DNA from: Acidobacteriota bacterium
GTDB taxonomy: Bacteria; Acidobacteriota; Terriglobia; Terriglobales; Acidobacteriaceae
Direction: 5' to 3'
Length of the DNA: 32,293 nucleotides
Assembly: GCA_003225555.1 (NCBI GenBank)
Contig: QIAM01000043.1
Coordinates: 1-32,293 of the forward strand
Shown: positions 6,025 through 30,060 of the stretch, one piece after another
Position numbering within the stretch: the stretch's first letter is position 1
Layout: each line of letters starts with the position of its first letter
Translations under genes and position numbers: made by a program
The notes under the pieces: model-generated
Databases searched by the model: none
What the model saw: only the letters and a program-made list of their open reading frames with translations
What the model was told of the DNA's origin: nothing

Positions 6025-6028
6025 GGCG

Positions 6029-6057
6029 GCGTTCCGGCGATTCTAGCAGTGGAACGC
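6029..6057. repeat. Spaced 7-bp inverted repeat between divergent MFS and GH28 genes
   Basis: GCGTTCC (6029-6035) and GGAACGC (6051-6057) are perfect inverted copies, 22 bp centre to centre, which is about two helical turns. The repeat lies directly upstream of the MFS start codon and about 65 bp before the GH28 start. It could be a dimer binding site controlling both genes. Confidence 0.35.
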
Positions 6058-6122
6058 GACACATTCAGCCGTGCTTCATGGGATACACTATCAATCCGAG
6101 TGTGGCAGGAGGAGAACGATTC

Positions 6123-9488: not shown

Positions 9489-9509
9489 CGCGTCCTGGAA
9501 ACATTTCGG

Positions 9510-9680
9510 GTGGCTTTCGAGTGGACGGTAAAGGCCATCATTACAGGTGCTGCCGGTAGCATTGGTCGAGCTATTGCACACAGATTTACCATGAGCGGTT
9601 GCCGCACTCTTTTTCTTTGCTCCGACGATGCATTCATCACCGGTGCTGACTATGCGATTGATGGAGGTTTTCTTGAATCT
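9510..9680 (+). pseudogene. SDR remnant with a large internal deletion
   Basis: One open frame starting at GTG 9510 joins the two ends of a short-chain dehydrogenase. The first 36 residues carry the cofactor motif (ITGAAGSIGRAIAHRF), and residues 38-57 carry the C-terminal signature (SDDAFITGADYAIDGGF). The roughly 180-190 residues that should lie between, with the catalytic Ser-Tyr-Lys, are missing. The frame stays open past the remnant and overlaps the start of the next gene. It sits between the dehydratase and the lactonase, so the ancestral operon probably had an SDR here, for example a sugar or ketodeoxy-acid dehydrogenase. The product cannot fold as an SDR, so I call it a pseudogene. 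Confidence 0.75.
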
Positions 9681-9726
9681 GCGAGGGTGAAGCTTCTGCG
9701 AGTCCCCTCGATCTTGCCGATACCTC

Positions 9727-10566
9727 ATGCATATCGATTCCCACCAGCACTTCTGGCGGTACGACAAACGCAGAGATGCGTGGATCACGGATGAAATGTC
9801 GGTTCTCAAGCGTGATTTCCTGCCTGACGACTTGATTCCCGAGTTACGCGCCAACCGAATCGACGGATCGATAGCCGTGCAGGCCGGTCAGTCCGAGCAG
9901 GAAACGCTCTTCCTGCTTGAGTTGGCGAGCCGATTCAGTGAGATCAAGGGTGTGGTGGGTTGGGTCGACCTTTGTTCGCCGGAACTGCCGGAGCGTCTGG
10001 AATACTTCTCGCAATTCGAGAAGCTGTGCGGCTTCCGGCATGTTGTCCAATCTGAACCCGATGATCGATACATGCTGCGGCAGGACTTTCTTGCAGGAAT
10101 TGCATCTCTCCAACGATTCCAGTTCACCTATGACATCCTGATCTATCCGCAGCAGCTGCCCGCTGCAATCGAATTGGCCGCAAAGTTTCCTGAGCAACGA
10201 TTTGTGGTCGACCACCTTGCCAAGCCTCCTATTCGATCGAGGGAGGTCTCGGATTGGGCGCGGAGCATGAAGACGATCGCGACGAATCCGAACGTATATT
10301 GCAAACTGTCCGGTCTCGTTACGGAAGCGGACTGGCATGATTGGCACGAGACTGATTTCAAGCCATACCTTGACGTGGTGTTCGGCGCCTTTGGCCCCGA
10401 CCGGCTTATGTTCGGCTCCGATTGGCCGGTTTGTCTGCTGGCCGGAACCTATCAACACGTGAAGGAGTTGGTTGCCGGCTTCATTCGCCACTTGCCCATC
10501 ACGCAGCAGGAGCAAATCTTCGGCGCGAATGCGACTCACTTTTACGGATTAAAGACACTCTTATGA
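9727..10566 (+). CDS. Amidohydrolase family sugar lactonase (L-fucono-/L-rhamnonolactonase-like)
   Basis: This 279-residue cytoplasmic protein is an amidohydrolase-2 TIM-barrel metal hydrolase of the type that includes L-fuconolactonase and L-rhamnonolactonase. Visible motifs are the HxH metal pair (DSHQHFW, H6 and H8), VDHLAKPP (H163) and MFGSDWPVC (D232). It would open the lactone made by a sugar dehydrogenase to give the aldonate, the substrate type of the dehydratase encoded upstream. Its stop overlaps the start of the mutarotase gene (ATGA), indicating translational coupling. Other members of this family hydrolyse different lactones or decarboxylate aromatic acids; the coupled mutarotase is the best argument for a sugar substrate. 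Confidence 0.85.
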   Translation: MHIDSHQHFWRYDKRRDAWITDEMSVLKRDFLPDDLIPELRANRIDGSIAVQAGQSEQETLFLLELASRFSEIKGVVGWVDLCSPELPERLEYFSQFEKLCGFRHVVQSEPDDRYMLRQDFLAGIASLQRFQFTYDILIYPQQLPAAIELAAKFPEQRFVVDHLAKPPIRSREVSDWARSMKTIATNPNVYCKLSGLVTEADWHDWHETDFKPYLDVVFGAFGPDRLMFGSDWPVCLLAGTYQHVKELVAGFIRHLPITQQEQIFGANATHFYGLKTLL

Positions 10567-10918: not shown

Positions 10919-12883
10919 ATGAGAATGTTTCTAATCGCAGTCTTGCTATTGGTAGCACCAGCGTTTGTGTGGGTATCCGGTGCAGCGGCGCAATCCAGCT
11001 ACGACCTGCGCTCGCCGGACAATCGAATTGAAATCCGGGTCCGCACCGCTGAGCGCCTGCGCTATGATGTCGTTCTGGAAGGTAGGGCCCTGTTGCAGGA
11101 TTGCACGCTTAGGCTCGATGTTGAGCACAAAACATTGGGTGTTGCCCCGAAAGTCACCGATGCCAAGCAGCGCACTAATGACCAAATCGTCGAGCCTGTG
11201 GTGCGCCGGAAATTCGCCAAGGTCCGCGATCACTACAATGAACTGCGTCTAAGTATGGACGGAGGTTACACCGTGGTGTTTCGCGCTTACAACGAGGGTG
11301 CCGCTTACCGCTGGGAAACTTCTCTTCCGCAGAAGCAAGTCAAGATCTATAACGAAGAAGGGAATTTTAACTTTTCCAGTAACTTCATCGTGTACTACCC
11401 GCAGGAAGACAGCTTCTATTCGCACAACGAGCGCAAGTACCTTCCGCAACATCTGAGCGAAATCGCTCCACAGTTCATTGCTACGCTACCAGCGGTGGTG
11501 GATGTTGGAGAAGGCGCGAAGATGGCGATCGCGGAGTCGGATGTGGACGACTATCCGGGCCTGTGGCTGCATGGTGCTGCGCCAAGCTTTGGACTGGCTG
11601 CGACATTTCCTCCGTATCCATTGAAGGAGACTCAGACCAGCGATCGCGATTACAAGGTAACGGAAAGTGCCGACTACATTGCGGTCACGTCCGGCACTCG
11701 AACTTTTCCGTGGCGAGTGATGGGCATTGCACAGAAAGATGGCGACCTGCTTACGAATCAGATCGTGTGGCTGTTGCAGAAGCCGTCGCAGGTGCAGGAA
11801 ACGTCGTGGATCAAACCCGGAAAAGTGTCATGGGACTGGTGGAACGATTGGAACATCGATGGCGTGGCCTTCCATGCTGGAATCAATACGCAAACCTACA
11901 AGTACTACATCGACTTCGCAGCGAAGTACGACCTTCCCTACATCATTCTCGACGATGGCTGGTACAAGCTGGGCAATCTGCTTGAGGTCTCGCCAGAATT
12001 AGACATGACAGAGCTCGCTGCGTATGCAAAGCAAAAGAACGTCGGCCTCATCTTGTGGGCGTCGTGGAAGACGCTGGACGATCAGATGACTCCTGCACTC
12101 GATCAGTTCGAAAAGTGGGGCGTCAAGGGCATCAAGGTGGATTTCATGCAGCGAAGCGATCAGATCATGATCAATTACTACCACCGCGTATGCCGGGAAG
12201 CAGCCAAGCGGAAAATGCTGGTGGACTTCCACGGAGACCAGAAGCCGGCAGTCATGACTCGCACCTGGCCCAACCTGATCAACACCGAAGGCGTGCGCGG
12301 GATGGAGTGGAGCAAGTGGAGCTGGGAATCTGAACCCAAACACAACGTCACGCTGCCCTTCACGCGGATGTTCCTAGGCCCCATGGACTACACCCCGGGC
12401 GCGATGCGAAACGCAACAAAGTCCACCTTCGCCCCAATCAATCACCAGCCGATGGCAATGGGCACGCGCTGCCACCAACTCGCGATGTATGTGGTTTATG
12501 AGGCGCCCCTACAGATGCTCTCAGACAGCCCGTCGAATTATCTCCGCGAGCCGGAGACCATGGAGTTTCTTGGGCCGGTGCCAACTGTGTGGGACGAGAC
12601 TCGCGTGCTCGATGCGCGGATCGCCGAGTACGTCTTAGTCGCCAGGAAGAATGGGTCTGATTGGTATGTGGGCGCGATGACAGACTGGACGGCACGTGAT
12701 CTCGAAGTGGATTTGTCGTTCCTGCCGGAAGGGCGCCTCAACATGGAAGCATACCAAGATGGGGTCAATGCCGATCGGTCGGCCAGCGACTACGAGAAGA
12801 CGACTGCCCAAGTCAACCGAACGACGAAGGTGAAAATTCATTTAGCGCCGGGAGGCGGATGGGCCGCGAGAATTCATCCGTGA
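10919..12883 (+). CDS. Glycoside hydrolase family 97, probable retaining alpha-galactosidase type
   Basis: This 654-residue secreted enzyme has a signal peptide (residues 1-24, ending GAAAQ), the N-terminal GH97 beta-sandwich (about 26-290), a TIM barrel from WDWWNDW (305-311) and a C-terminal beta domain. GH97 contains inverting alpha-glucosidases (SusB) and retaining alpha-galactosidases. The KVDFM motif places an Asp at 408 where retaining members have their nucleophile, and INTEGVRGMEW (E457, E463) holds the acid/base candidate. The retaining type is therefore favoured; confirmation needs an alignment. AAAAGGTG lies close before the ATG. It ends the plus-strand operon and converges on an SDR gene with only 10 bp between, leaving no room for a separate terminator. 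Confidence 0.9.
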   Translation: MRMFLIAVLLLVAPAFVWVSGAAAQSSYDLRSPDNRIEIRVRTAERLRYDVVLEGRALLQDCTLRLDVEHKTLGVAPKVTDAKQRTNDQIVEPVVRRKFAKVRDHYNELRLSMDGGYTVVFRAYNEGAAYRWETSLPQKQVKIYNEEGNFNFSSNFIVYYPQEDSFYSHNERKYLPQHLSEIAPQFIATLPAVVDVGEGAKMAIAESDVDDYPGLWLHGAAPSFGLAATFPPYPLKETQTSDRDYKVTESADYIAVTSGTRTFPWRVMGIAQKDGDLLTNQIVWLLQKPSQVQETSWIKPGKVSWDWWNDWNIDGVAFHAGINTQTYKYYIDFAAKYDLPYIILDDGWYKLGNLLEVSPELDMTELAAYAKQKNVGLILWASWKTLDDQMTPALDQFEKWGVKGIKVDFMQRSDQIMINYYHRVCREAAKRKMLVDFHGDQKPAVMTRTWPNLINTEGVRGMEWSKWSWESEPKHNVTLPFTRMFLGPMDYTPGAMRNATKSTFAPINHQPMAMGTRCHQLAMYVVYEAPLQMLSDSPSNYLREPETMEFLGPVPTVWDETRVLDARIAEYVLVARKNGSDWYVGAMTDWTARDLEVDLSFLPEGRLNMEAYQDGVNADRSASDYEKTTAQVNRTTKVKIHLAPGGGWAARIHP

Positions 12884-12893
12884 GACTTTCCGG

Positions 12894-13691
12894 TTACGAG
12901 GCGGGTTTGGATTGTAGTGCGCGTGTGGCCCCGGTCGAGATCCCGCCGTCCACCAGCAGTGTTTGTCCGGTCACGTAGCGGCTGGACTCTGATGCAAGAA
13001 ATACGATGGCTCCATCCAGGTCGTTTGGTTGTCCCGGCCGTTTGAGCGGGATGCGATCGCAAAGATACTCGACCCATTCCGGATTCTCGTAGAGAACCTT
13101 GTTCTGCTCCGTGCGGAACCAACCGGGGGCGAGGCAGTTCACCGTGATCCCATCTTTCCCCCAGTCGTCGGCCAGGCTCATGGTCAGTTGCCGAATGCCT
13201 CCACGACTCGCTCCGTAAGGCGCGAGCCCTGCATAGCCCGCGACACTTGTTACCGACCCAATGTTGATAATGCGTCCGTATCGGCGAGGAATCATGTGAC
13301 GCGCCACGGCTTGCGCGACGAAGAAGCTTCCCCTGAGATTGGTATCGAGAATCAGATTCCAATCGTCCCACGTCACTTCGAGCGCAGGCTTGCGGACATT
13401 GCAGCCAGCGTTGTTGACGAGGACATCGAGACGGCCAAACTCTTCTGCGGCAGCCTCTACCATCCGCTCGATGCTTTCCTGGCTGCGCACGTCGAGTTCG
13501 AGGGAAATCGCGCGCCGGCCAAGAGCCTTGATTTCCGTTTCGAAAGGCAACACGTGATCGCGATTGCGGCTGGTGAGAACTAACTCAGCGCCCGCTTTTG
13601 CCAGGGCTCGCGCGAAGTGCTGACCTAACCCTCGGCTGGTTCCGGTGACGATCGCTACCTGGCCGGTAAGGTCAAACAGTTCGTTCTTCAC
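12894..13691 (-). CDS. SDR with Lys-to-Arg change in the catalytic motif
   Basis: This 265-residue protein looks like gluconate 5-dehydrogenase or KduD. It has the cofactor motif TGTSRGLG (residues 16-23), NNAG (93-96), Tyr159 and the C-terminal RYVTGQTLLVDGG. The catalytic YxxxK motif reads YGASR, so position 163 is Arg. The codon is CGT, at about 13203-13205. Lysine there normally lowers the pKa of the Tyr and binds the nicotinamide ribose, so activity may be reduced or the protein may have another role. The start is GTG, overlapping the TGA of the alcohol dehydrogenase (GTGA), so the two are translationally coupled. It is the last gene of the long minus-strand operon. Confidence 0.87.
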   Translation of the reverse strand: MKNELFDLTGQVAIVTGTSRGLGQHFARALAKAGAELVLTSRNRDHVLPFETEIKALGRRAISLELDVRSQESIERMVEAAAEEFGRLDVLVNNAGCNVRKPALEVTWDDWNLILDTNLRGSFFVAQAVARHMIPRRYGRIINIGSVTSVAGYAGLAPYGASRGGIRQLTMSLADDWGKDGITVNCLAPGWFRTEQNKVLYENPEWVEYLCDRIPLKRPGQPNDLDGAIVFLASESSRYVTGQTLLVDGGISTGATRALQSKPAS

Positions 13692-14728
13692 GAGACCGTC
13701 CCCGGAGTGAGAACAACTTTCATCAAGTTGGGCTCACGCGCGTAGAGCCGTTCAAACCACTGTGGACCTTCCTCCAGAGGAGCGATTGCGGTGATGAGTG
13801 GTTGGACTCGAATCGCACCACTATTCATGAGTTCTATTGCGCGAGGGTATTCGCCCGCGGAAGCGCACGATCCTTGCAGCCGAATCTGGCGAGTGACGAC
13901 CTTTTGCAGCGGGAGAGTTACCTCAGGTGAGATGTTGCCTACGAGAATGACCGAGCCTCCCTTACGAACACTCTCGATTGCGGCTGCGACAGTCTCGTTC
14001 TTTCCGACGGCTTCGACTGCAATTCCAACCCCGGTTCCGTCCGTAAGGTGCTGCACCTGCCCCAACATCTCCGGTCCCGCCGGTAAGACGCCGGTTGCCC
14101 CTAGTTCTTGCGCACGTTTAAGTCGCGTGCTGTCTACATCGGCGACGAATACGCGTGAACAGCTAGCCACACGCAGGGCTTGCTGCACGAGAAGTCCGAT
14201 TGTGCCTGCTCCCACGACGAGCGCGGTGGTATCAGGCGGAATCAGAACCAACGAAACAGCATGGATCGCGACCGCCACCGCTTCAAGCATCGCGGCTTCG
14301 GCGAACGACAGATTCTCGGGTAGTTGATACACGATGCCCGCAGGCACAACCACGAATTCTGCAAAAGCTCCCGCTCGACGATAATCCCCGCAGGAAACGC
14401 CCAAGACCTGGCGGTGATCGCACAGATTTACTTCACCTCGGCGACAGGGAGCACACTTCCCACAAGAGACCGTCGAGTCAAATGTAACGCGGTCCCCTTG
14501 CGACAGACCTTTCACGTTGTCTCCGAGGGCCACAACTGTTCCCGCCGCCTCATGGCCCATAACGATGGGTGGAATGCGCCGCCCGGAAGAGCCATCGTAG
14601 CCGTGAACATCGCTGCCGCAGATACCGCAGGCCGCGACGCGCACAAGAACTTCACTCGGACCAGGCTCAGGCACAGGGAGATCCGCAAGTTCAAGATGAC
14701 GGTACTTTGACAGCAGCAGTGCTTTCAT
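13688..14728 (-). CDS. Zinc-dependent alcohol/polyol dehydrogenase (MDR family)
   Basis: This 346-residue medium-chain dehydrogenase resembles the sorbitol (L-iditol), threonine and galactitol-phosphate dehydrogenase branch. The catalytic zinc ligands are in CGICGSD (C37) and GHEAAG (H59, E60). The structural zinc site is CGKCAPCRRGEVNLC (C89, C92, C95, C103). The NAD-binding Rossmann motif is VVGAGTIG near residue 172. It would oxidise a sugar or polyol in the cytoplasm. It begins 6 bp after the stop of a CRTAC1/UnbV gene and overlaps the following SDR, so it should share a transcript with the beta-propeller and TPR genes. The substrate is unknown; a neutral sugar released by the local glycosidases is a reasonable guess. 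Confidence 0.9.
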   Translation of the reverse strand: MKALLLSKYRHLELADLPVPEPGPSEVLVRVAACGICGSDVHGYDGSSGRRIPPIVMGHEAAGTVVALGDNVKGLSQGDRVTFDSTVSCGKCAPCRRGEVNLCDHRQVLGVSCGDYRRAGAFAEFVVVPAGIVYQLPENLSFAEAAMLEAVAVAIHAVSLVLIPPDTTALVVGAGTIGLLVQQALRVASCSRVFVADVDSTRLKRAQELGATGVLPAGPEMLGQVQHLTDGTGVGIAVEAVGKNETVAAAIESVRKGGSVILVGNISPEVTLPLQKVVTRQIRLQGSCASAGEYPRAIELMNSGAIRVQPLITAIAPLEEGPQWFERLYAREPNLMKVVLTPGTVS

Positions 14729-14734
14729 CGTGTT

Positions 14735-16519
14735 CTACTTCGTTTGCAGTTTCGCGGCCGGAACAATCCCGCCGCCTTCGCGGATCGTGAGTATCTGATT
14801 GGCCTTCACCTGTGTGAACTTTTCAATCTTCTGGGTGGTCGGCCACTTAACTTCGATGAGATCAACAGTCTCGGCCTTGCCCACTCCGAAGTGAAGTCGC
14901 AGATCAGACTGCGACATCACGCTTGAACCGCTGTGGACCTCATCCATCTGCGCATGATTGCCCGTCACCACGCGTACCCGAGCGCCTATTGCAGTGCGAT
15001 TGCACTTTGTTCCGACCAGCTTGATCTTGATCCAATTCTGCTTGTTGCCACCATCGTTACGCAGCAGGGAAGGCAGATCGTTCATGTTCAACACTAGAAC
15101 GTCGATGTCGCCATCATTGTCGTAATCCCCGAAGGCGGCGCCCCTGCTGGAAAATCGTTCGCTGATGCCGGGGCCCAGTTCTGACGAGACCTCTTTGAAC
15201 TGCCCCTTGCCCATGTTCTTGTACATGAGTCTCGGATTCTTGTAAGTCTGGCCGATCTCGTGTCCCTCCATCTCCGGATAAACGTGTCCGTTGATCTGGA
15301 GAATGTCTGGCCAGCCGTCGTTGTCATAGTCGATCGGTCCGCAGCCCCAGCCGACGTAGCGATTGTTGATCCCGATGCCGGACGCAAACGTCACATCGCT
15401 GAAGGTTCCGTCCCCGTTATTGCGATAGAGATTGCAAGTGTCGTCCGCAAAGTTCGTCTTGAAAATATCAAACCAGCCGTCGCAGTCGTAATCGGCAACC
15501 GCTACCCCCATGCCAGCCTGCTCATGACCGTCTTCGCTGTAAGCACAACCGGCCATCACCGCGATGTCAGTGAACGTCCCGTCGTGATTGTTGTGATACA
15601 GGATGCTTGGCTGCGAGTCCACAGCGACATAGATATCGGGCCAGCCATCGTTGTCAAAATCGTAAGAAACGGGTGTAATGGAATATCGCGGACCCGGTTT
15701 CAGAATTCCTGTCTTCTCGGACACGTTAGTAAAAGTTCCGTCACCATTGTTGTGATAAAGAACGTTGGTATCGCCGGTCAGACCGCGGGGACCGCACATC
15801 ACCGGAATTCCTTTCCACTGGCAAACCGCAGGATCGGTGGAGGGAGTTTTCGCAGGATCGAGCTTGATGTAATTGCAGACCAAGAGGTCGAGATGGCCGT
15901 CGCGGTCGTAGTCAAGAAACGTGCACCCGGCGCCCCAGCGAATCTGCTCATCGTAAACTCCGGCCTTGTGGGTAACGTCGGTGAACGTGCCGTCGCCGTT
16001 GTTGTGGAACAGGACGTTGTGCCCCCAGAAGCAGCAGAACAGATCATCCCAGCCGTCGTTGTCGTAGTCGCCCACGCAGACTCCAGTTTGCCAGCCGGTG
16101 CGCGCCAGTCCGGATTTCTCCGTGACATCAGTGAAGGTTCCGTCGCGATTATTTTTGTAGAGATGGGATGTCGGTGCTTGGCCTTGCGGCCAGTGTTCGC
16201 CGAATCGCGTTCCGTTGGTCAAGTAGATATCGAGCCAACCGTCGTTGTCATAGTCGAAAAACGCCAGCCCACTTCCCTTGGCCTCCACGATGTACTGCTT
16301 ACGATTGACGCCGCCCCAGACATTGGGCGCAGTCAGCCCGGCCTCACGAGCGACGTCGAAGAACACAACCGGAGAAATGGCTGGAGGATTCGCAACCGCT
16401 GCCGGCCTCAGCACAAGGCCGCGCTTCCATTTCCAGATGGGCGTTGTGAGAGCGTCGACGAGAGTGCTGCCCAGCACGACGAGGGAAGAGCCAAGGAAAT
16501 GTCGCCGAGGGAAGTTCAT
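14735..16519 (-). CDS. CRTAC1 family FG-GAP/VCBS protein with ASPIC/UnbV domain
   Basis: This 594-residue exported protein has seven calcium-binding loops of the DxDxDGxxD type (for example DYDNDGWLD, DYDRDGHLD, DFDNDGWPD), matching a seven-bladed beta-propeller, each blade preceded by NNxDGTFTDVT. An ASPIC/UnbV domain occupies about residues 495-580. The N-terminus (FPRRHFLGSSLVVLGS) looks like a Tat or Sec signal. I start at the ATG at 16519, 2 bp after the upstream stop, because the longer frame adds 38 residues that overlap that gene and are not signal-like. The family's molecular function is unknown; a glycan-binding or cell-surface scaffold is plausible. It is a close paralogue of the gene upstream. 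Confidence 0.9.
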   Translation of the reverse strand: MNFPRRHFLGSSLVVLGSTLVDALTTPIWKWKRGLVLRPAAVANPPAISPVVFFDVAREAGLTAPNVWGGVNRKQYIVEAKGSGLAFFDYDNDGWLDIYLTNGTRFGEHWPQGQAPTSHLYKNNRDGTFTDVTEKSGLARTGWQTGVCVGDYDNDGWDDLFCCFWGHNVLFHNNGDGTFTDVTHKAGVYDEQIRWGAGCTFLDYDRDGHLDLLVCNYIKLDPAKTPSTDPAVCQWKGIPVMCGPRGLTGDTNVLYHNNGDGTFTNVSEKTGILKPGPRYSITPVSYDFDNDGWPDIYVAVDSQPSILYHNNHDGTFTDIAVMAGCAYSEDGHEQAGMGVAVADYDCDGWFDIFKTNFADDTCNLYRNNGDGTFSDVTFASGIGINNRYVGWGCGPIDYDNDGWPDILQINGHVYPEMEGHEIGQTYKNPRLMYKNMGKGQFKEVSSELGPGISERFSSRGAAFGDYDNDGDIDVLVLNMNDLPSLLRNDGGNKQNWIKIKLVGTKCNRTAIGARVRVVTGNHAQMDEVHSGSSVMSQSDLRLHFGVGKAETVDLIEVKWPTTQKIEKFTQVKANQILTIREGGGIVPAAKLQTK

Positions 16520-16521
16520 AG

Positions 16522-18285
16522 CTATTTGCCAGGCACCTTTGGAAACTTCCGCGGCACAATTCCCGAGCCTTCCTTGATCGCGAGAATCTGATCGATGGCC
16601 ACATTCAGGCGATCCACTTGTCCGCTGGGCCACGTAATCTCCAGGGATGCGATCTTGGTGCGTGATCCCAAACCAAAATGAATCCGGGGATCGCTCGCTG
16701 ACATGTAACTCATTCCGCCTTTTGCCTGCTCAACATGGACGAATCCCTCGGAGGTTACCTTCAACAAGGCTCCGATGCCATCCCGGTTGGATCGTGTTCC
16801 GATCAGAAGAACTTCCAACCAGTGGTTCGCGCTCCCACCGTCGTTGCGCAGCAGGGAAGGGTAGTCGCCGCGGTTGTTAATGGCGATATCAATGTCCCCA
16901 TCGTTGTCGAAGTCGGCCGTGGCCAAGCCCCGACCGGCGATGGGCCGCACGAAGTCCGATCCCAAAGAATCTGAGACTTTCTCGAACTGCCCATTCCCTA
17001 CATTGCGAAACATCAACAGCGGCTCTTTGTAAGAAACTTCACTGTGATAAAGCTGAATATTATCGAGCATGGCGCCGTTCAATTGCAGGGTGTCGACCCA
17101 TCCATCGTTATCGTAGTCGACGAACTTCATCGACACGCCGCTCAACAGAATAGCCTTGTTGCCGATGCCACAACGGTATGTATCGTCAGTGAAAGTTCCG
17201 TCCCGGTTGTTGTGATAGAGGCGGTTCAGCTCGAAATCCAGATGCGTGATGTATACGTCCAGCCAGCCGTCTCCGTCGACATCGGCGGCATCGATTCCCA
17301 TGCCCGCTTCGTATCTGCCATCCTCGCTCGCGGCGAGACCGGAAACCAGCGACACATCCTCAAACGTGCCGTTGTGCTTATTGATGAATAGAAAATTCGG
17401 CCACGAGTCGTTGGCGATAGCGATGTCGGGCCAGCCGTCATTATTGAGGTCCGCCAGCACGACGCCCATGCCCTTGGCCTCCGGCTTGCCGACTCCAGAC
17501 GCGTCGCTTACGTCGGTGAATGTGCCATCGTGGTTGTTGTGGTAGAGCTTGATTCTCTGACCCTTGTAGTTGCCGGGATGGCAGTACGACCGATAGCCTG
17601 GGCGATGCTCGCCGCACCAGAGATTATTCTTTGGCGTCCACTCGATGTAGTTGGTGACGACCAGGTCGAGCCAGCCGTCTTTGTCGTAATCAAACCACCC
17701 GGCGCTGGTTGACCATCCGCCTTCGTCAGCGACGCCGGCCTTTGCGGTCACATCGGTGAAGGTTCCATTTCCGTTGTTGTGGTAGAGGATGGCGCGGCCG
17801 TAGCCGGTGACGTAGAGATCGGGATATCCGTCGTTGTCGAAGTCCGCGACGGCGACTCCTTGTCCGTACTGGTCTTTTCCTCCGACGCCGGCTTTCTCCG
17901 TGACGTCGGTAAAAGTTCCATCGCCATTGTTGTGGTAAAGCGCGGAGCGCAAGGGACTGGGCGGTTTGTAAATGTCAGTGGCCGCAGATTGTACGAAGAA
18001 CAGGTCTTGGAGTCCGTCCTGATCGTAGTCGATCCACCCGACGCCCGTGCCCATGGTTTCAAGGTAATACTTTTCTTCGGTTTGAGTGCCATCCTGGCGA
18101 AAGGTGATTCCTGCACTCTGCCGAATATCCGTGAAATGGACTGCATTCGCAGAAGAGCGTAGCCTTCTAGACTGCCCAGCCTGGGGCGTTGAATTGCCCG
18201 ATGAGATGAGTGCAGCGCTGACTGCGAGAATAGCGCCACAAGTTGGTCCGAAGCCGAGTCCCATACTACGAAGGTTGTTCCCCAT
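16522..18285 (-). CDS. CRTAC1 family FG-GAP/VCBS protein with ASPIC/UnbV domain (paralogue)
   Basis: This 587-residue protein has a hydrophobic export signal (about residues 8-32), seven DxDxDGxxD-type loops (DYDQDGLQD, DFDNDGYPD, DYDKDGWLD, DLNNDGWPD, DVDGDGWLD, DYDNDGWVD, DFDNDGDID) and a C-terminal ASPIC/UnbV domain with IGTRSNRDGIGA and HFGLGS. It should form a calcium-stabilised seven-bladed propeller outside the cytoplasm. A TTG codon 33 bases upstream could extend it into the preceding gene, but the ATG at 18285 gives a cleaner signal peptide. The gene is 13 bp after the TPR gene and 2 bp before its paralogue, which points to tandem duplication within the operon. No function is established for the family. 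Confidence 0.9.
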   Translation of the reverse strand: MGNNLRSMGLGFGPTCGAILAVSAALISSGNSTPQAGQSRRLRSSANAVHFTDIRQSAGITFRQDGTQTEEKYYLETMGTGVGWIDYDQDGLQDLFFVQSAATDIYKPPSPLRSALYHNNGDGTFTDVTEKAGVGGKDQYGQGVAVADFDNDGYPDLYVTGYGRAILYHNNGNGTFTDVTAKAGVADEGGWSTSAGWFDYDKDGWLDLVVTNYIEWTPKNNLWCGEHRPGYRSYCHPGNYKGQRIKLYHNNHDGTFTDVSDASGVGKPEAKGMGVVLADLNNDGWPDIAIANDSWPNFLFINKHNGTFEDVSLVSGLAASEDGRYEAGMGIDAADVDGDGWLDVYITHLDFELNRLYHNNRDGTFTDDTYRCGIGNKAILLSGVSMKFVDYDNDGWVDTLQLNGAMLDNIQLYHSEVSYKEPLLMFRNVGNGQFEKVSDSLGSDFVRPIAGRGLATADFDNDGDIDIAINNRGDYPSLLRNDGGSANHWLEVLLIGTRSNRDGIGALLKVTSEGFVHVEQAKGGMSYMSASDPRIHFGLGSRTKIASLEITWPSGQVDRLNVAIDQILAIKEGSGIVPRKFPKVPGK

Positions 18286-18298
18286 CACCGGAGTTTTG

Positions 18299-20854
18299 TC
18301 ACAAGGTCCGGTCGGCAAGCGACAATGCTAGCTGCAATATTTGCTGCCTTGCCACCATCGGCATGGGTTCGCGGATCGACGAAGCAGGCGCCGGTGCCTT
18401 GGAGAGAGCTTCTTCAATCCGATTCACGTCCAACCCGCCAGCCTTGCTACCCTTAAAGCGATTCAGCACTTCCCGAGCTTTCTCGATTTGTCCTGTCTGA
18501 TAATAAAAAACACCCAGCGTGGAATAACTGCCGGCCCACTCTGGCAGTAGCTCCACGGCGCGCTCTAGGCGCTCCGCAGCCTCGGCAGTCTTGCCTTGAA
18601 GGACTGATACAAGACCGAGCCCCCACAGGATTTTCCCGGAACTCGGAATCCGGGCGCGTCCTGTTTGCAGCGTCTTTTCGGCTCCGCTTACATCGTTTTC
18701 GCGAAGCTCGATCAGTGTGAGCGAGAGGTAGTACTGGTCGTTGTCGGGATTCCGATTGATAGCATCGCGAAAGATTTCGAGCGCTTTGGCCGCGTCTCCA
18801 AGGTGCGAGTAGATATCTCCAAGAAGAGCGAGATGGGTATCGTCCTGCTGTCCCTTGGCCGAGACTTTCTGAGCAACTTCCAGCGCTTCGTTGTAACTGC
18901 CTTTGCGAAAGTAGGCATCGGCGAGATCGAATTTCACATCGTCGGAGTCGGGATTCGCGTGCAACGCCGTCTGGAAATGCTGGATCGCGTCGTCATACAA
19001 CCGATAGCGCGCAAGCAGTACACCCACCCCAGTCTGGGTTCGATAGTCATTAGCGCTTATCTGGTCCAGTTGCCCGAGAGTTTCCCTGGCCTCTTGGCGT
19101 TTCCCGAGCTTGAGGTAAGCTTCCGCCAAAAGGTAAAGATTTTGTGGCTGGTTCGGATGCAGACGAGCTTGCTCGCTCAGTTCCGCCAGGTCGAGTTGAG
19201 TGCGTTCCTGCGGAGCAAGCTTGGACCGGTTGTCAAGGTAGTCAAAAAGGTGCTGATACGGATACGGCCCGGTCGACGAGTCTTTCGAGAGCGTTTGGAA
19301 AACGTTCAAATCCCGTTGCGCGGCCTCGAGTTGGCGAAGACTTCTCTCCACCATGGCTAGTTTGTAGTATCCAGAAGCAGGATCGTGGCTTACACGAACG
19401 TAGCGTCGCAGCAGAGTCGCGGCATCTTCAAATTTCTTATTCTTGGTTCGGAGGTTCGCAAGCTCCAGCAGCGCTTCGGAGAAATCGGGATTCGAACGAA
19501 GCGCCTGTTGAAATAACTCTTCTGCTGCTGCGTCGTTCCCCTGCCTCTCTTCGATGTATCCCAGGTTGAACAAGCAAGATGCGTTGCGACGGTCCTGCTT
19601 GAGCCCGTCCTGAAAGTACTTCCTTGCTTCATCGAATCGCCCTAAGTGGCGGTACGCAAGGCCCATGAAAGCGTAAGATCGCGCCGAGGGATCCAGTTCG
19701 ATGAGTTTCTTGAACTCGTCGATGGCCTTTTCTGCCTTCCCCGACATGAAGTAGCTCTCGCCCAGGGCAGCGTGAAGGTCCGCTCTTTGGGGCGCAATTT
19801 TCAATCCGGATTCCAGCAGTGGAATCGCGTCCTCGAAATAATTCTGGGTCATGCTGACCCGCGCCATCAGGAAGATGATGTCCGTGTTCTGCGGGTCCAG
19901 CTTTTTGGCAAGCACTAGCAGGTCCAAAGCATCCACCGGCCTCGTCTGATCGGAACAGACTTGGGCTAGCAGATACAGGGTCTCAGGCGAATCGGGCTGC
20001 AGCTTCAGAGCCCGATTCAACGTCAATTCGGCTTTCGCGTAGTCGCGACTGCGCAGATAAACTTGTCCCAGGTTGTAGAGCGTCTCGAACGTTTCGGGCT
20101 GTAGCGCATTGGCTTTTTCCAATTCCACCTTCGCCAATCCGTACTGTTTTTCTGAAGCCAACAAGACACCCAACGTGAAATGCAACTGGACATCGTTCTT
20201 CTTTTCGACAGAAATTTCCCGGGCCAGCTTCACTCCGTCTGCGGTTCTGCCCGCCCGCAGGTAGGCACGAGTCAGGTTAAAGCGGGTTTCCATATTCCAT
20301 GGGTGCACTCGCTGAAAGTGCAGGATGGCCGCGGCGGGAGCCCCCGTAGCCATCAGCAGCAGGCCTAGGTTATAGTTTCCGTCACGATTGGCAGGGTCAA
20401 GGCGCAGGACTTCTCTAAACTCTTTTTCCGCAAGACCGAGCTTTTCTTGGGCCAGGTAAACGTTAGCCAGATTGTTATGAGTCTTTGTCGAACTAGGAGC
20501 GAGCCTCAGCGCATGCTGGAACGCTTTTGCGGCTTCCCCGTAGTTTTTCTGGCTGGCGTAGACAATGCCCAGCAAGTTGTATCCTTCGGCGTTGGACGGA
20601 TTCTGTTTGAGTTGTTTTTCTACCTCATTCCGGGCTTCGTCAGTATGCCCTTCGCGAAGCAATGATTCCGCTTCCGCGAAAGGCGATTGGGTTACGGAAG
20701 AATGCGATGGCATGCGGCGCCCGGATTCGGTCTGCTGGGCTGCCTTTCCACTCGACGAAAACAAAATCAACCCGAACGCAAGAATGGCGGGCACCCCGGG
20801 TCGAAGATACGCGGTGCGCGCTGATGCATGCGGAGATAAGGTATCGAAGGGCAT
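18299..20854 (-). CDS. Large exported TPR-repeat protein
   Basis: This 851-residue protein has a signal peptide (about residues 18-39, ending GKAAQQ) and then about twenty tetratricopeptide repeats up to about residue 815. Typical units read AEGYNLLGIVYASQKNYGEA and THNNLANVYLAQEKLGLA. TPR arrays form helical solenoids that hold other proteins, so it probably acts as a periplasmic or outer-membrane scaffold. It lies 20 bp after the CRTAC1-redoxin-TPR gene and 13 bp before the next CRTAC1 gene, so it likely partners those propeller proteins. No enzymatic domain is visible. No strong ribosome site is seen before the ATG, which fits translational coupling. Confidence 0.9.
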   Translation of the reverse strand: MPFDTLSPHASARTAYLRPGVPAILAFGLILFSSSGKAAQQTESGRRMPSHSSVTQSPFAEAESLLREGHTDEARNEVEKQLKQNPSNAEGYNLLGIVYASQKNYGEAAKAFQHALRLAPSSTKTHNNLANVYLAQEKLGLAEKEFREVLRLDPANRDGNYNLGLLLMATGAPAAAILHFQRVHPWNMETRFNLTRAYLRAGRTADGVKLAREISVEKKNDVQLHFTLGVLLASEKQYGLAKVELEKANALQPETFETLYNLGQVYLRSRDYAKAELTLNRALKLQPDSPETLYLLAQVCSDQTRPVDALDLLVLAKKLDPQNTDIIFLMARVSMTQNYFEDAIPLLESGLKIAPQRADLHAALGESYFMSGKAEKAIDEFKKLIELDPSARSYAFMGLAYRHLGRFDEARKYFQDGLKQDRRNASCLFNLGYIEERQGNDAAAEELFQQALRSNPDFSEALLELANLRTKNKKFEDAATLLRRYVRVSHDPASGYYKLAMVERSLRQLEAAQRDLNVFQTLSKDSSTGPYPYQHLFDYLDNRSKLAPQERTQLDLAELSEQARLHPNQPQNLYLLAEAYLKLGKRQEARETLGQLDQISANDYRTQTGVGVLLARYRLYDDAIQHFQTALHANPDSDDVKFDLADAYFRKGSYNEALEVAQKVSAKGQQDDTHLALLGDIYSHLGDAAKALEIFRDAINRNPDNDQYYLSLTLIELRENDVSGAEKTLQTGRARIPSSGKILWGLGLVSVLQGKTAEAAERLERAVELLPEWAGSYSTLGVFYYQTGQIEKAREVLNRFKGSKAGGLDVNRIEEALSKAPAPASSIREPMPMVARQQILQLALSLADRTL

Positions 20855-20874
20855 TCAGTCTGCGCCGTTGCAGC

Positions 20875-23800
20875 TCAATGTAGCATTTCCAGTTCCTGCT
20901 GAGCCATCTTATGTTGCGGTTGCTGGTGCAATAGTGTCAGCAGTATGTCTCTAGCCTTTTCCTTATTGTCCAGGATCACATACAGGCGGGCTAGATTCAC
21001 ATACGCTTGATCAAAATTTGGGTTGGATTTGATGCAAGCCTTGAATTTCTCCTCCCCTTCCGGATACCGGTGTTCTCTCACGAGAATAACGCCAAGATTG
21101 TTGAGCGCGTCGGGATAGTCCGGCCTGGTGTTGACTGCTTTTTCCAAATACTCCAGGGCCCGCGCCATCTCGTCTTGCTGGGCATACAGCATTCCCAGGC
21201 TGTAGTTTGCCTCGGGATCGTCAGGCTCAACCTCGATCGCGTGGAGAAGCAACTTTTCCGCGTTAGCAAATGACTTTTGGCGCCGGTAAAGGTTCCCTAG
21301 GTTTACAAGCGCAATCGGGTAGTCCGGCCTCAATTCCAGCGAGCGCGTGAAGTTTTGGATGGCTTCCTCATCGCTTTTTTCCTGGGCCGCGACCATTCCA
21401 AGATTATTCCATGCTTCCGGATAGTTCGGACGCATCTTTACCGCCTGTTCGAGGTACTGGCGGGCGTTGTGTGAATCATTCCTTCGCAGATAAAGCGTCC
21501 CCAGATTGTAATAAGCCTCCGGATCGTCCGGCCGAGCCGCTATCACCTGCCTGAAAGAAGTTGCCGCCTGCTCCAGATATCCGCGCTGGAAAAATGCGAC
21601 TCCGTAGGTGAAGTCATTACGCAGGAATTCCCCCTGGTAGAGCTTTCCCTCAAACGGAAGACCCCTCCGCATACGTTCCCCCACAGTACGCGGAACTGAC
21701 CGCACATCTTCCAGCAATCGTTCGGGATTCACCGGCCCCTGATAGACCTTAACGATCATGCCCTCGGGATCGACGAGGAAAGAGATAGGCACGCCGAGAT
21801 CCCTGCGGCGGTCAAACAAGTAACGATAGATAACGTTGTAGATGCCAGCCACTTCCGGGGTGGCCATCAAAGTGGGGAAGGAGAAGCCTTGTTTTAAGAC
21901 GAGAGAACGTACTTTTGGGACGTTGACGAGATCGTCCAAGTTCACAGCGACGATCTGTAGGCCACGCGCCGTAAGCTTTGATTGGTGCTGCCGCAGTAGT
22001 GATAACTGGTCGCTGCAGGACGACGAATCGGTCACCCAAAAGCTCAAAATCAGAAAGCCCTTTTGGAAAGACCGAAGATCCCATTGCTTACCGTCGATGT
22101 CATGCAAAGAGAACTCTGGCGCGCTCAAAGGCTGAATGAGCCAAGTCTCGATCGACGACGGCAAATCTGCGGGCTTCTCGTCCGCGTGCGGATGAACCCG
22201 CGGCGAGGCAACGAACGGTTTGGCAAGATATTTCTCTGAGCCTTCTTCGATTTCGATTCGATGATTGATTGGCAGTTGCTCGAATGATTGCGTTCGCCCA
22301 CTCGGCCAGTGAATGGTGGCCCGGACCGTGCCCTCGAACGTCCCCACTCCGAAGAAGAGCTCCTTGGTGTGCTGAGACAAGAATCCCGAGCCGGCCTGAA
22401 GATATTTCGTCTGGCGATGCTCTGCTGCCTCGACTGTGACAGCGGCTCCGATCGCATCACGATTGCTCTTTGTCCCCCGCAAACGGAACGCGATCGAGTT
22501 CCCCAAATCCTTCATCGCGTTGTGCAAGATCCGGAGTTGTGGTGCGTTTCGGTTCTTGAGAATTACTTCCAGCCGTCCGTCGTGGTCCAGGTCGGCGAGC
22601 GCAAACGAGCGGCTGTCGTCCGGAAAATCAAGCCCGGCTATGGCGGAGACATCTGAAAACGTGCCGTCGTGATTGTTCAGATACAAAACATTCCGCTCGC
22701 GGCCGTTCCATGTGGCGTCGGACCGGATCAACTCGTTGATCGCATTCCACCCTCGCTCATAGTTGAACGAAGCACTGGAGTCTGGCGGTGATTTCGCGAC
22801 GACCTGCCGCCAGAAGAAGCTGGCAAGATCGCGTGCATCAGCTCCGGAGATATACCCATTGGCGATGTACAGGTCAGGATAGCCGTCATGATCGAAATCC
22901 CACGCGTCCGAAGACCAAGCCCATCGGCCCATCTCGACTCCCGCTGGCTGGCTGACGCTTTTGAACCGTCCATTTCCCTGATTCTGGTAGAGAGAATTGC
23001 CGCGAGCGTGTTGGCGGTAAAGGGCTCGAATCGTCTCAGGATCTTTGGGATGAAAGGAATTTTGGGTGGAAATTCGCATGCCGGCGGCAGACCACATGTT
23101 GCCAACAAAAATGTCTTGCTTGCCGTCGCCATCGAAATCGAACCAGCTGGCGCTCATCCCTGCGCCCGCTTCCTCAACCCCCGCTTCGGACGAGACAACT
23201 GTGAACGTTCCGTTGCCGTTATTCCGATACAGATTGCTCCGCCCGAAGTCGTTGGCCACGTAGAGATCCGGACGTCCATCTGAGTCGCAGTCTCCCCAGG
23301 CACAAGCGAAGCTATAACGATCATTGTCCACATAAAGCCCGGCGACCTGTGTGCGATCGCGAAAGGTTCCGTTGCCTTCGTTGTGGAGTAGAAAGTTCGG
23401 AGGTCCATTGCGCGCATCAAAGTACGGAGCGGGATAGTGATACTGGTCCAAGCCAAGGTAGTAGCTGTAAAGACAAAAATAGATATCCAGAAATCCATCG
23501 TGGTCGTAGTCGGCAACGGCGGCATGTGTAAAGGTGCCTTGCGGAGGTCGCACAAAGTTGAAGGCATCGCGTTTTAGCGAAAAGTCTCCGTTGCCCTGAT
23601 TCAGGAATAGCAGAGGCCCACTGCCGCAAACGACGAGAAGATCCTGCAATCCCTTGTTCTCGAAGTCCGCGAACAAAGCGCTGGCTGTTCCATCCAGCAC
23701 GCCCACTCCTGATTTCTCAGTCACATCCTCGAACGTCCCGTCACCTCGATTGCGATAGAGACGGTTTGGAAGTCCCGAGGGCTGGCACACGTAAATCTCA

Positions 23801-24702
23801 TCCCAGCCGTCATTGTCGATGTCGCCGACAGCTACGCCGTTGTTGCCGTACACGTTGATCCCGCAGGCGGCGTCTAGCACCGTACGCCAGTGGTCAACCC
23901 CGCGCAACATTTGGTTCCGGTATGACTCAGTTTGACCAAGGGCTTGCGAAGTAATGTCTACGAATAGTGGTTCGCGAGCGCGACTGACAGTTTCTTGCGT
24001 CGCCTGCCACCTGGTTGCTTGCCAGTCGTTCGATACACCGCGCGACCACAAGGTCAACCAACGTCCCACACGCTGCTCGCGCGCAGAATCTCGTCGAGTT
24101 CCGACAAGGTCGTAACGAATCTCGAGCTGAAAGGTGTGTGGAATGCCGGCTCGCTCCTCGATAGCAGTGAGTTCGAATTCAGCGACCTCGACTCGCGCCA
24201 TTTGCGAGAAATAGGTTTTGATTTCGCAGAGGAACTGCTCGCGACCTGGCTTCACCTGGGCAGTAAAGCGCCTTCGATAAATCTCGATTCCTCCTTCCGC
24301 ACGCAGAGCCGTTTCCTGGATCGGCGAAAGCGAAGCCGCTTCGATTGCAGGGTCCACGAATTTCGCGATGACGTCGAGAGCAGGCGGAGCCGACTTTAGA
24401 GTCTGACTCCAATCACCGAGAAGTTGCATGATTTCCCATGCGTACTTCTCGGTAACGTACTCGTCACCGCCCGGAACCGCCTGGCGAAGAAGATCTTCGA
24501 GTGGAGACTTTGCAGGATCGTGGGGTGTGAAACGAAAGTCCGAGAAGGGAAGAGAGAACCCGCGATCCCAAATGGTTTTTGGGAAGAAAGGCCCGACGGG
24601 CAAGCCATGCAAGGGCGATGGAAGCAAAACCATGGGCGCCCATCGCATTCCCTTGAGGAAGGCCCGGCGTGAAGTGAAGTTTTCGTCTTTACGACTCGCC
24701 AT
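20875..24702 (-). CDS. Multidomain CRTAC1/UnbV - redoxin - TPR fusion protein, Tat-exported
   Basis: This 1275-residue protein starts with a Tat signal (SRRAFLKG, residues 11-18). About 220 residues of unrecognised alpha/beta sequence (roughly 50-270) follow, then a propeller region with seven calcium-loop motifs (DIDNDGWDE, DFENKGLQD, DYDHDGFLD, DCDSDGRPD, DFDGDGKQD, DFDHDGYPD, DLDHDGRLE). Next come an ASPIC/UnbV domain (about 770-850), a thioredoxin-fold AhpC/TlpA-like domain (about 862-1010) and seven TPR units to the end. The redox motif that would be WCxxC reads DSSSC, leaving only Cys896. I use the ATG at 24702; a TTG 21 bases upstream is also possible. It is the first gene of the six-gene operon, 95 bp after the LacI gene. 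Function is unknown; a periplasmic scaffold with a redox or binding module fits. Confidence 0.88.
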   Translation of the reverse strand: MASRKDENFTSRRAFLKGMRWAPMVLLPSPLHGLPVGPFFPKTIWDRGFSLPFSDFRFTPHDPAKSPLEDLLRQAVPGGDEYVTEKYAWEIMQLLGDWSQTLKSAPPALDVIAKFVDPAIEAASLSPIQETALRAEGGIEIYRRRFTAQVKPGREQFLCEIKTYFSQMARVEVAEFELTAIEERAGIPHTFQLEIRYDLVGTRRDSAREQRVGRWLTLWSRGVSNDWQATRWQATQETVSRAREPLFVDITSQALGQTESYRNQMLRGVDHWRTVLDAACGINVYGNNGVAVGDIDNDGWDEIYVCQPSGLPNRLYRNRGDGTFEDVTEKSGVGVLDGTASALFADFENKGLQDLLVVCGSGPLLFLNQGNGDFSLKRDAFNFVRPPQGTFTHAAVADYDHDGFLDIYFCLYSYYLGLDQYHYPAPYFDARNGPPNFLLHNEGNGTFRDRTQVAGLYVDNDRYSFACAWGDCDSDGRPDLYVANDFGRSNLYRNNGNGTFTVVSSEAGVEEAGAGMSASWFDFDGDGKQDIFVGNMWSAAGMRISTQNSFHPKDPETIRALYRQHARGNSLYQNQGNGRFKSVSQPAGVEMGRWAWSSDAWDFDHDGYPDLYIANGYISGADARDLASFFWRQVVAKSPPDSSASFNYERGWNAINELIRSDATWNGRERNVLYLNNHDGTFSDVSAIAGLDFPDDSRSFALADLDHDGRLEVILKNRNAPQLRILHNAMKDLGNSIAFRLRGTKSNRDAIGAAVTVEAAEHRQTKYLQAGSGFLSQHTKELFFGVGTFEGTVRATIHWPSGRTQSFEQLPINHRIEIEEGSEKYLAKPFVASPRVHPHADEKPADLPSSIETWLIQPLSAPEFSLHDIDGKQWDLRSFQKGFLILSFWVTDSSSCSDQLSLLRQHQSKLTARGLQIVAVNLDDLVNVPKVRSLVLKQGFSFPTLMATPEVAGIYNVIYRYLFDRRRDLGVPISFLVDPEGMIVKVYQGPVNPERLLEDVRSVPRTVGERMRRGLPFEGKLYQGEFLRNDFTYGVAFFQRGYLEQAATSFRQVIAARPDDPEAYYNLGTLYLRRNDSHNARQYLEQAVKMRPNYPEAWNNLGMVAAQEKSDEEAIQNFTRSLELRPDYPIALVNLGNLYRRQKSFANAEKLLLHAIEVEPDDPEANYSLGMLYAQQDEMARALEYLEKAVNTRPDYPDALNNLGVILVREHRYPEGEEKFKACIKSNPNFDQAYVNLARLYVILDNKEKARDILLTLLHQQPQHKMAQQELEMLH

Positions 24703-24797: not shown

Positions 24798-25811
24798 TCA
24801 AGCAGGTTGTTCAAGGGGCGCGGGTCCCGACGAATCTCCCAAGACAAGTTCCGCCCCGATCTCGTACTCCTTACCCTGAGGATTGGCCGAGCCGGAGAGT
24901 TCGTGCAAGGCGTCGGCGGCAATCTGCCCCAGAGTTTCACGATGGATGTCCACAGTTGTAATCGACGGATTGCTGTATTCGGCCAGGCTCGTCTTGTCGA
25001 ATCCGGTGATCGAAACATCCTGGGGCACCCGGCATCCCGACTTCAGCAGACCTTTGATCACACCGACGGCAGTCAGATCGTTGATGGCCATCACGGCCGT
25101 AGGACGGGGCGACAGCTTTGCGATGGCTAATCCGGCGGCCAGTCCGCCGTGAAAGCGCAAGTCCCCAGGCAAGACGGGTCCCGGTTTTAATCCCAACGCG
25201 GACATACATTTTTCGTAGGCACGTAAGCGCTCAACATTCGATTTCAGCCCGGGCCTTCCCGCAACAAAGGCGATTCTCCGATGTCCGCACTGGTAGAGAT
25301 ACTTCACAATTTGCTCGACTCCGGAGAAGTAGTCGATTCGCAGATTGCTCATGTATCCGCGGACGGGCGCCGGATCGAGAAGAGTTACGGCAATTTTCCT
25401 TCGCGCCAGTTCATGAATCAGCCGCATGCTGATCTCCGAGGTCATGATGGCAACGCCCCGGACTTTGTGTTCCATCATTCTCTCCGCCGCCAACCGGGTT
25501 CTGCGAGGATCATAGTTGGTGTCGCTGAGGATGGCGTCATAACCAAGCTGACGGGCGCGGATTTCAAAACTCTTGATCACCTCCGGGAAGAAGGGGTTTT
25601 CGATGTCGGAAACGATGATGCCAAGAGTGCGACGGTCCCCCGAAGCCAGATGGCGGGCATGAACGTCGGGAATGTATCCCAAGCGCTTGACGGTCGAAAG
25701 AACAAGGCGGCGCGTGCGGCGTCCCACCTTTCCAGTCTTGTTCAAGACGTTGGAAACAGTGGCGGTGGAGACCCCTGCGGCCTTCGCGACATCACGAATG
25801 GTGAGGCTCAT
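24798..25811 (-). CDS. LacI family transcriptional regulator
   Basis: This 337-residue protein has the LacI-type helix-turn-helix at the N-terminus (TIRDVAKAAGVSTATVSNVL, residues 4-23), the hinge helix (ARHLASG with Leu55) and a periplasmic-binding-protein-like effector domain (from RTLGIIVSDIENPFF to the C-terminus). Such proteins usually repress carbohydrate genes until a sugar binds. The VSTATVS recognition helix is like that of CcpA and PurR, which read palindromes with a central CG. One such site lies just downstream of its own probable promoter. It is followed after 95 bp, on the same strand, by the CRTAC1/TPR/dehydrogenase operon and is divergent from the TonB receptor, so both are likely targets. 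The effector is unknown. Confidence 0.93.
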   Translation of the reverse strand: MSLTIRDVAKAAGVSTATVSNVLNKTGKVGRRTRRLVLSTVKRLGYIPDVHARHLASGDRRTLGIIVSDIENPFFPEVIKSFEIRARQLGYDAILSDTNYDPRRTRLAAERMMEHKVRGVAIMTSEISMRLIHELARRKIAVTLLDPAPVRGYMSNLRIDYFSGVEQIVKYLYQCGHRRIAFVAGRPGLKSNVERLRAYEKCMSALGLKPGPVLPGDLRFHGGLAAGLAIAKLSPRPTAVMAINDLTAVGVIKGLLKSGCRVPQDVSITGFDKTSLAEYSNPSITTVDIHRETLGQIAADALHELSGSANPQGKEYEIGAELVLGDSSGPAPLEQPA

Positions 25812-25985: not shown

Positions 25986-26010
25986 GGTTAAGCGGTTAAG
26001 TTCGGTTGAT
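25986..26010 (+). repeat. Short direct repeats in the TonB receptor leader
   Basis: GGTTAAG occurs at 25986-25992 and 25994-26000, followed by the partial copy GGTTGAT at 26004-26010. The 8-10 bp spacing could mark a binding site for a regulator, or be chance. Nothing else is recognised between 26011 and 26130. Confidence 0.25.
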
Positions 26011-29990: not shown

Positions 29991-30060
29991 AGCAGATTCT
30001 TCCGCTGATCCTGATGCCCCGGGCGTCCCCGATCAGTGCTAACATACGAACGCCGTGGCT

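Follow-up and report, generated by a model that had tools for sequence, protein, structure and literature searches.

The closest described systems to the locus considered here are the SusCD-type polysaccharide utilisation loci of Bacteroidota, which it resembles in combining a locus-bound regulator, a TonB-type receptor, exported neighbours that may bind substrate, and glycoside hydrolases (GHs), one of them from GH97, the family to which SusB of the Sus system also belongs. The locus lies in the window, a stretch of 32,293 bases that is an entire contig (QIAM01000043.1) of an Acidobacteriota bacterium (assembly GCA_003225555.1; 4.42 Mb, 86% complete), and centres on six minus-strand genes: a CRTAC1-redoxin-tetratricopeptide repeat fusion (FUS), a tetratricopeptide repeat (TPR) protein, two CRTAC1/UnbV beta-propellers (CRT2 and CRT1), a zinc-dependent medium-chain dehydrogenase (ADH) and a short-chain dehydrogenase (SDR). 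Unlike SusCD-type loci, it has no SusD match, its receptor is of OMP_b-brl_4 type, its GH97 is of alpha-galactosidase rather than SusB type and its regulator is a LacI protein, so that the binding role would fall to the CRTAC1 propellers and TPR proteins. In our reading, to which we give a probability of about 0.55, the cluster forms one side of a conserved, divergently arranged locus for the use of galactosides under LacI control, where lectin-like CRTAC1 propellers would take over the capture job of SusD. This reading draws on gene order, on the pairing of LacI with an operator-like site, on recurrent galactosidase families and galactokinase, and on the lack of a SusD match; linkage and regulation rest on comparison of sequences, and capture of galactose sugars by the propellers we infer.

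The predicted model of CRT1 matches the structure of vertebrate CRTAC1 (cartilage acidic protein 1, PDB 9etn), whereas the proteins of the window are bacterial, carry export signals and are encoded in an operon with TPR proteins; no common function is known. Psathyrella velutina lectin (PVL)-type seven-bladed lectins (2bwr/4up4), which are sugar-binding propellers, took Foldseek ranks 2–8, but at 17–19% identity and a template modelling (TM) score of 0.33–0.37 on the query. Paralogue families of ASPIC/UnbV proteins and of TonB-dependent receptors have been described in Candidatus Solibacter usitatus (PMC3174227); the two families are shared with the present case, and the passages available from that paper contain no such locus, regulator or substrate. 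CRTAC1-family genes also occur beside hydrazine-synthase-like subunits, a different setting (PMC12758564), and integrin-type propellers are present in bacteria (PMC3192720). Titles and abstract starts in the open-licence literature yielded neither a description of this locus nor a function for bacterial UnbV/CRTAC1 proteins.

The original prediction had described the six genes as an operon, with gaps of 20, 13, 2, 6 and -4 bp; re-measurement matched these exactly, and Pfam backed all six domain calls. FUS is preceded at a distance of 95 bp by the LacI gene, which has the same orientation and may therefore be where the operon begins. Related loci were taken from a named-genome scan with FUS (best 80 of 97 loci), their open reading frames (ORFs) being annotated using the window's proteins; the close-FUS set comprises 44 loci above 1,400 bits, with L042 and L058 (split FUS, under 1,400) retained by hand. 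The recurrent arrangement has LacI, FUS, TPR, CRT2 and CRT1 reading one way and, divergently, the receptor, a second TPR protein (TPR2) and an alkaline-phosphatase-superfamily-like protein (PHOS). A divergent TonB-type receptor was present in 35/38 close-FUS loci with at least 1.5 kb of sequence upstream, and LacI in 18/38; where at least 4.5 kb was available downstream of FUS, TPR followed in 26/36, CRT2 in 18/36 and CRT1 in 28/36. Where LacI is missing, often just the receptor, FUS and CRT1 remain, Terriglobus roseus (L032) being one example; the LacI-less form also occurs in Paracidobacterium acidisoli (L018). Conservation of gene order around CRTAC1 genes in other Acidobacteriota, proposed earlier as a check, was seen for receptor and CRTAC1, and the recurrence across the phylum, in many soil Acidobacteriota, indicates that the arrangement is not due to chance. 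The six genes are real, and the bounds drawn around them left out the receptor arm of a larger divergent unit. A 401-aa protein, X401, adjoins PHOS wherever both are seen and is single-copy in 14/17 genomes with a LacI locus (for example, L010:636-1910 and L012:816-2021); neither X401 nor PHOS (two full-length relatives) matched a Pfam family above cut-off. A CarboxypepD_reg plus TPR protein of 518–590 aa is often found downstream of CRT1, usually convergent (L010:20140-21696, with counterparts elsewhere).

A CG-centred palindrome, ACTTAANCGCTTAACC, is common to the stretches between the receptor and LacI genes. On a 14-letter score, with 11 or more counted as a site, an operator-like site was present in 20/20 LacI loci (window included) and in 1/17 stretches without LacI (L017; Fisher 1.3e-9), three further LacI-less loci having no stretch to score; since the motif was learned from the LacI loci, it is the contrast with LacI-less loci that makes the fair test. 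Sites in L022 scored only 11, and that of L039, inside an over-long ORF, was recovered by a wider scan; L137 also carries an operator-like site. LacI is present in L006 with no site within its 287 bp upstream, and the sequence of L004 is cut at that region. Two loci not counted among the 23 LacI loci, L035 and L042, carry a LacI relative in a different arrangement, with a weak site in L042 and none in the LacI-receptor gap of L035. Allowing up to two mismatches, the window site was the sole match to the longer operator pattern in the 4.42 Mb of its own genome, and a search of that genome for a wider LacI regulon with TTAARCGYTTAA returned 0 sites. With the match confined to the window, LacI looks like a local regulator; it has the helix-turn-helix and sugar-binding domains of its family, and its promoter region carries the CG-centred palindrome. 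A second operator-like site in L044 (L044:22523), approximately 28 bp upstream of a GH2 ORF, hints that LacI also controls the GH2 enzyme in that genome.

The substrate is suggested by the company that LacI loci keep. Pfam identified, among flanking ORFs, GH36 (L005), GH2 (L002, L044 and L022), GH42 (L034), GH31 (L015) and galactokinase (L002), and GH97 was found at L004, L015, L022 and L034 and in the window's genus. In an initial count, limited to LacI loci whose flanks reached 2.5 kb or more, galactose-type genes were present at 8/12 LacI loci, compared with 2/18 LacI-less close loci, 4/30 distant loci and 0/40 background regions, each 20 kb long (20 were drawn from four genomes that have megabase contigs, and the remaining 20, including three of the locus-bearing G023, came from congeners); Fisher tests gave 6.6e-7 against background and 0.004 against LacI-less loci, and background stayed at 0/40 with additional queries at 60 bits. 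In a final hand tally, galactosidase families (GH97, GH36, GH42 and GH2) or galactokinase stood at either end of 14/20 assessable LacI loci, L007, L013 and L058 having been dropped from the 23 (window included) as too short; L006 and L008 were scored through a second contig of the same genome bearing X401, PHOS and TPR2, the join being presumed. Beyond X401, in twelve genomes, were a GH42-like gene (L242), GH2 (L243, and a weaker match of 165 bits in L248) and, in L250, the series X401, GH2, galactokinase, ADH and SDR, of which galactokinase alone is reversed. As the recurrent enzymes are mutually non-homologous, inherited gene order alone hardly explains them.

The GH97 of the window scored 579 bits to 3a24 and 576 to 5e1q, both retaining alpha-galactosidases, and 165 to SusB (2d73), and keeps D where 5e1q carries G (KVDFM motif), as expected of the retaining alpha-galactosidase type; we take this motif Asp to be the nucleophile and the reference enzyme to be BtGal97b. 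SusB-type starch use was dismissed on the same scores. Galactosides are predicted as substrate on a stronger lead than the original prediction possessed, the clue of alternative galactosidases at both ends of the locus not being visible from one genome alone.

The lack of a SusD match and the abundance of both protein families extend to the whole genome, which has 27 UnbV domains in 21 clusters, 33 PF25183 receptors (from 41 matches, the pieces of two genes being merged to one each and three short matches omitted, two of them over the cut-off) and 0 matches, in an assembly 86% complete, to SusD_RagB (PF07980), the sole SusD model used, for which a control found Bacteroides. A PF25183 receptor lies within 8 kb of 14/21 UnbV clusters, against about 14% expected (p 4e-8), and this proximity, together with the missing SusD match, supports a putative partner role for the propellers. 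The receptor beside the locus is TonB-type by its CarboxypepD_reg and OMP_b-brl_4 domains; we take OMP_b-brl_4 receptors to be Oar-like. The same numbers, with few UnbV clusters having a LacI relative in the stretches taken, could reflect a general outer-membrane capture or surface-assembly module, in which UnbV and TPR proteins work with many Oar-like receptors on varied cargo and galactosidases have joined one branch in passing. That LacI-less loci seldom have galactosidases fits such a module; we consider it improbable, given that galactosidase company in the LacI branch is far above background and recurs with non-homologous enzymes.

Several observations weigh against the galactoside reading. 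The galactosidase queries were derived from these and related loci, and 37/40 background regions came from genomes in which a LacI locus was not seen. Six LacI loci (L009, L010, L011, L012, L025 and L039) had no galactosidase in the flanks examined; other flanks carry MacB, PQQ, TetR, GMC and other genes, so these six have no galactose pointer. At most loci the galactose-type enzymes lie outside the operons, and GH2, GH31 and GH42 also cover other activities. Such enzymes are rare (2/18) at loci where the same propellers and receptor occur without LacI, from which it follows that the family as a whole does not have galactosides as its substrate. GH36 above 300 bits was present in 7/17 LacI genomes and beside the locus in just 1, none of four GH36 neighbourhoods fetched being at the locus. 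Ten GH97 neighbourhoods appeared to be off-locus: two proved to be its other end (L232, with GH97, X401, PHOS, TPR2 and receptor all reading leftwards, and L230, with TPR2, PHOS, X401, GH2 and, further on, GH97 all reading rightwards), L236 had GH97 beside ADH-SDR, L227 had GH97 beside GH2, and the other six showed nothing as clear. When the operator pattern was run backward as a control, it had 3 chance matches in the window's genome, so the single match there proves nothing alone, and no second operator site precedes GH97 in the window. Outside the genus, the ADH neighbourhoods L142 and L143 had nothing galactose-like among the ORFs scanned. PVL-type lectins were not in the VIA top 50, which excludes nothing.

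The uronate genes of the window, finally, make pectin a possible substrate. A locus for rhamnogalacturonan or galactan-decorated pectin, in which galactosidases trim side chains and the left-hand uronate genes process the backbone, would account for the GH28 halves, the BH0493-type uronate isomerase and the GD_AH dehydratase to the left of the operon, and a UxaA-like gene adjoins ADH-SDR in L160. Among related loci queried with the window's own proteins, however, uronate genes were not seen recurring at the core, whereas galactosidases were, and the GH28 itself looks frameshifted; pectin is unlikely to be the better explanation. The original prediction had placed LacI, a TonB-type receptor, GH97 and GH28 nearby, and all were found, although GH28 is not intact: it is split between two ORFs that differ in frame, and because the second frame is still open ahead of the start of its ORF, a frameshift or an error in sequencing is the likely cause.

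The headline of that prediction, the joining of a CRTAC1 operon to sugar dehydrogenases, was not supported in that form, ADH-SDR being missing from most related loci; an obligatory dehydrogenase partner of the CRTAC1 operon was rejected on this and on the ADH neighbourhoods described below. No specific NCBIfam model names the substrate of the pair: ADH matched none above cut-off, and SDR falls only in a broad 'glucose 1-dehydrogenase' subfamily (232 vs 215 bits). ADH orthologues were detected in 8/61 genomes (own included) at E ≤ 1e-60 and in 105/299 genomes of the class at E ≤ 1e-120. Within 1.5 kb of flank, the best 29 ADH matches beyond the window had SDR adjacent in 27/29 and CRT1 in 1/29 (L169). 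Within the genus, ADH-SDR sits in the CRTAC1 operon of four of six ADH-bearing genomes (own, G002, G021 and G023), each with CRT1-ADH-SDR and convergent GH97; the contig of G031 begins at ADH and retains SDR and GH97, and G030 has ADH-SDR with no CRT1 there, 2.3 kb from GH2. Outside the genus, the pair joins the CRTAC1 locus in L169 and L008, and in L015 it does so at the other end (ORF scores in L164 and L172 are identical to those of the L008 and L015 places, which are probably the same places). By sequence comparison, then, ADH-SDR is apparently a portable catabolic pair, recruited to the locus more than once, and not conserved core.

Such portability, with CRT1 within 1.5 kb in 1/29 ADH loci and nothing galactose-like in the two neighbourhoods outside the genus, would also be consistent with lineage-specific readthrough, the pair having inserted downstream of CRT1 and sharing its promoter without a functional tie. 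We regard this as rather doubtful, as the pair joins in three arrangements, namely after CRT1 (genus g1 and L169), one gene on (L008) and beyond GH2-galactokinase (L015/L250; L172, with galactokinase beside ADH-SDR and ORF scores equal to L250, is probably the same place and was counted once), and in L141 GH2 is 2.3 kb away from it.

Membership of the CRTAC1/UnbV_ASPIC family is plain from FG-GAP repeats and from UnbV_ASPIC scores of 76 (CRT1), 65 (CRT2) and 64 bits (FUS) against a Pfam cut-off of 23.4. Twin-arginine signals seen by eye in FUS (SRRAFLKG) and CRT1 (PRRHFLG) are preserved in the family consensus and, with the ordinary-looking signals of CRT2 and TPR, lead to a prediction that all four products are exported, unlike ADH and SDR, which are cytoplasmic enzymes. 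An active thiol-disulfide redoxin in the middle of FUS was ruled out: the first Cys of CxxC, the N-terminal nucleophile, is replaced in 20/20 aligned homologues (S 16, A 3, V 1), the second being retained in 18/20. FUS has at least 7,961 relatives at E 1e-3 (among 8,000 candidates scored), and at least 120 homologues among the matches listed had 68–100% identity at 96–100% query coverage; its structure model (residues 45–1020) was poor (predicted local distance difference test, 66.8). The fusion is dispensable for the layout, G023 having the entire LacI-TPR-CRT2-CRT1-ADH-SDR series with no FUS at the locus. A close FUS (59–64% identity) was found in 2/36 congeners (G002, as two ORFs, and G006, across two contigs) and is common in other Acidobacteriota, an uneven distribution that suggests patchy loss or transfer. 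A second FUS paralogue in the window's genome (L112, G000:C111:4270-8109; 52% identity) lacks the LacI core and has a TPR protein 1.25 kb further on; FUS of this type is the best full-length FUS of most congeners having one, and galactokinase lies 1.1–1.3 kb from it in G023 (at L150, which is also L099) and G034 (L095).

Under the galactoside reading, the CRTAC1 propellers, which are predicted to be secreted, would hold galactose-containing sugars at the cell envelope and hand them over to the TonB-type receptor whose gene lies alongside, with TPR proteins acting as scaffold for receptor and propellers. LacI would occupy the palindrome and release it upon a galactose-type signal. Galactose would be freed by GH97 (GH36, GH42 and GH2 in relatives), and ADH, SDR and perhaps the outer lactonase and dehydratase may oxidise the sugar in lineages lacking, or adding to, galactokinase. 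The coordinates are given in Table 1.

Table 1. Features of the locus and its neighbours in the window.
Feature	Position	Strand	Description
FUS (CRTAC1-redoxin-TPR fusion)	20875..24702	-	1275 aa; Pfam FG-GAP/UnbV_ASPIC, AhpC-TSA/Redoxin, TPR; twin-arginine signal by eye
TPR (tetratricopeptide protein)	18299..20854	-	851 aa; Pfam; signal peptide by eye
CRT2 (CRTAC1/UnbV beta-propeller)	16522..18285	-	587 aa; Pfam; Sec-type signal by eye
CRT1 (CRTAC1/UnbV beta-propeller)	14735..16519	-	594 aa; twin-arginine signal MNFPRRHFLG by eye
ADH (zinc-dependent medium-chain dehydrogenase)	13688..14728	-	346 aa; Pfam; lineage-specific operon addition
SDR (short-chain dehydrogenase)	12894..13691	-	265 aa; Pfam; usual ADH partner
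LacI-family regulator	24798..25811	-	Pfam; operator co-occurrence; apparently local to locus
Operator-like palindrome ACTTAACCGCTTAACC (- strand reading)	25986..26001	.	LacI/receptor intergenic region
TonB-type outer-membrane receptor	26165..29941	+	Pfam CarboxypepD_reg + OMP_b-brl_4 (679 bits)
TPR2 (TPR protein behind receptor gene)	30055..31470	+	Pfam; order in related loci
PHOS (alkaline-phosphatase-superfamily-like)	31532..32293	+	Final gene, truncated at contig end; twin-arginine signal by eye; superfamily read from motifs
GH97, retaining alpha-galactosidase type	10919..12883	+	Convergent with SDR; Pfam; position kept in G002, G021, G023, G031
GD_AH-family sugar-acid dehydratase + lactonase	7809..10566	+	Neighbouring catabolic genes; lactonase nearest L-fucono-1,5-lactonase, below cut-off
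GH28/rhamnogalacturonase, two ORFs in different frames	6003-6875 and 6917-7711	+	Looks frameshifted
BH0493-type uronate isomerase	2434-3753	-	427 bits to 2pnk; not detected with Pfam or NCBIfam (thresholds used)

The earlier idea of a Sus-type utilisation-locus analogue thus keeps the link to receptor and LacI, the glycan enzymes and a Sus-like layout without SusD, and loses the dehydrogenase join; the cluster is probably better read not as a dehydrogenase operon but as a galactoside locus that is coupled to a receptor and controlled by LacI, with CRTAC1 propellers the likely binding proteins. A broader proposal, put forward tentatively and with the odds against it, is that the phylum has a SusD-free class of TonB-dependent glycan loci, in which tens of CRTAC1/UnbV paralogues per genome may partner Oar-like receptors, each set with its own glycans, the LacI branch being the galactoside one. 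UnbV/CRTAC1 domains are abundant in this genome, and the locus supplies a predicted substrate class and a regulator with one candidate genomic site; named strains carrying the LacI-less form make the role of CRTAC1 propellers directly testable. If the broader proposal is true, bacterial CRTAC1 proteins would have a first function as a family; through the common fold, the locus also provides a lead on vertebrate CRTAC1, for which the proposal would suggest glycan binding.

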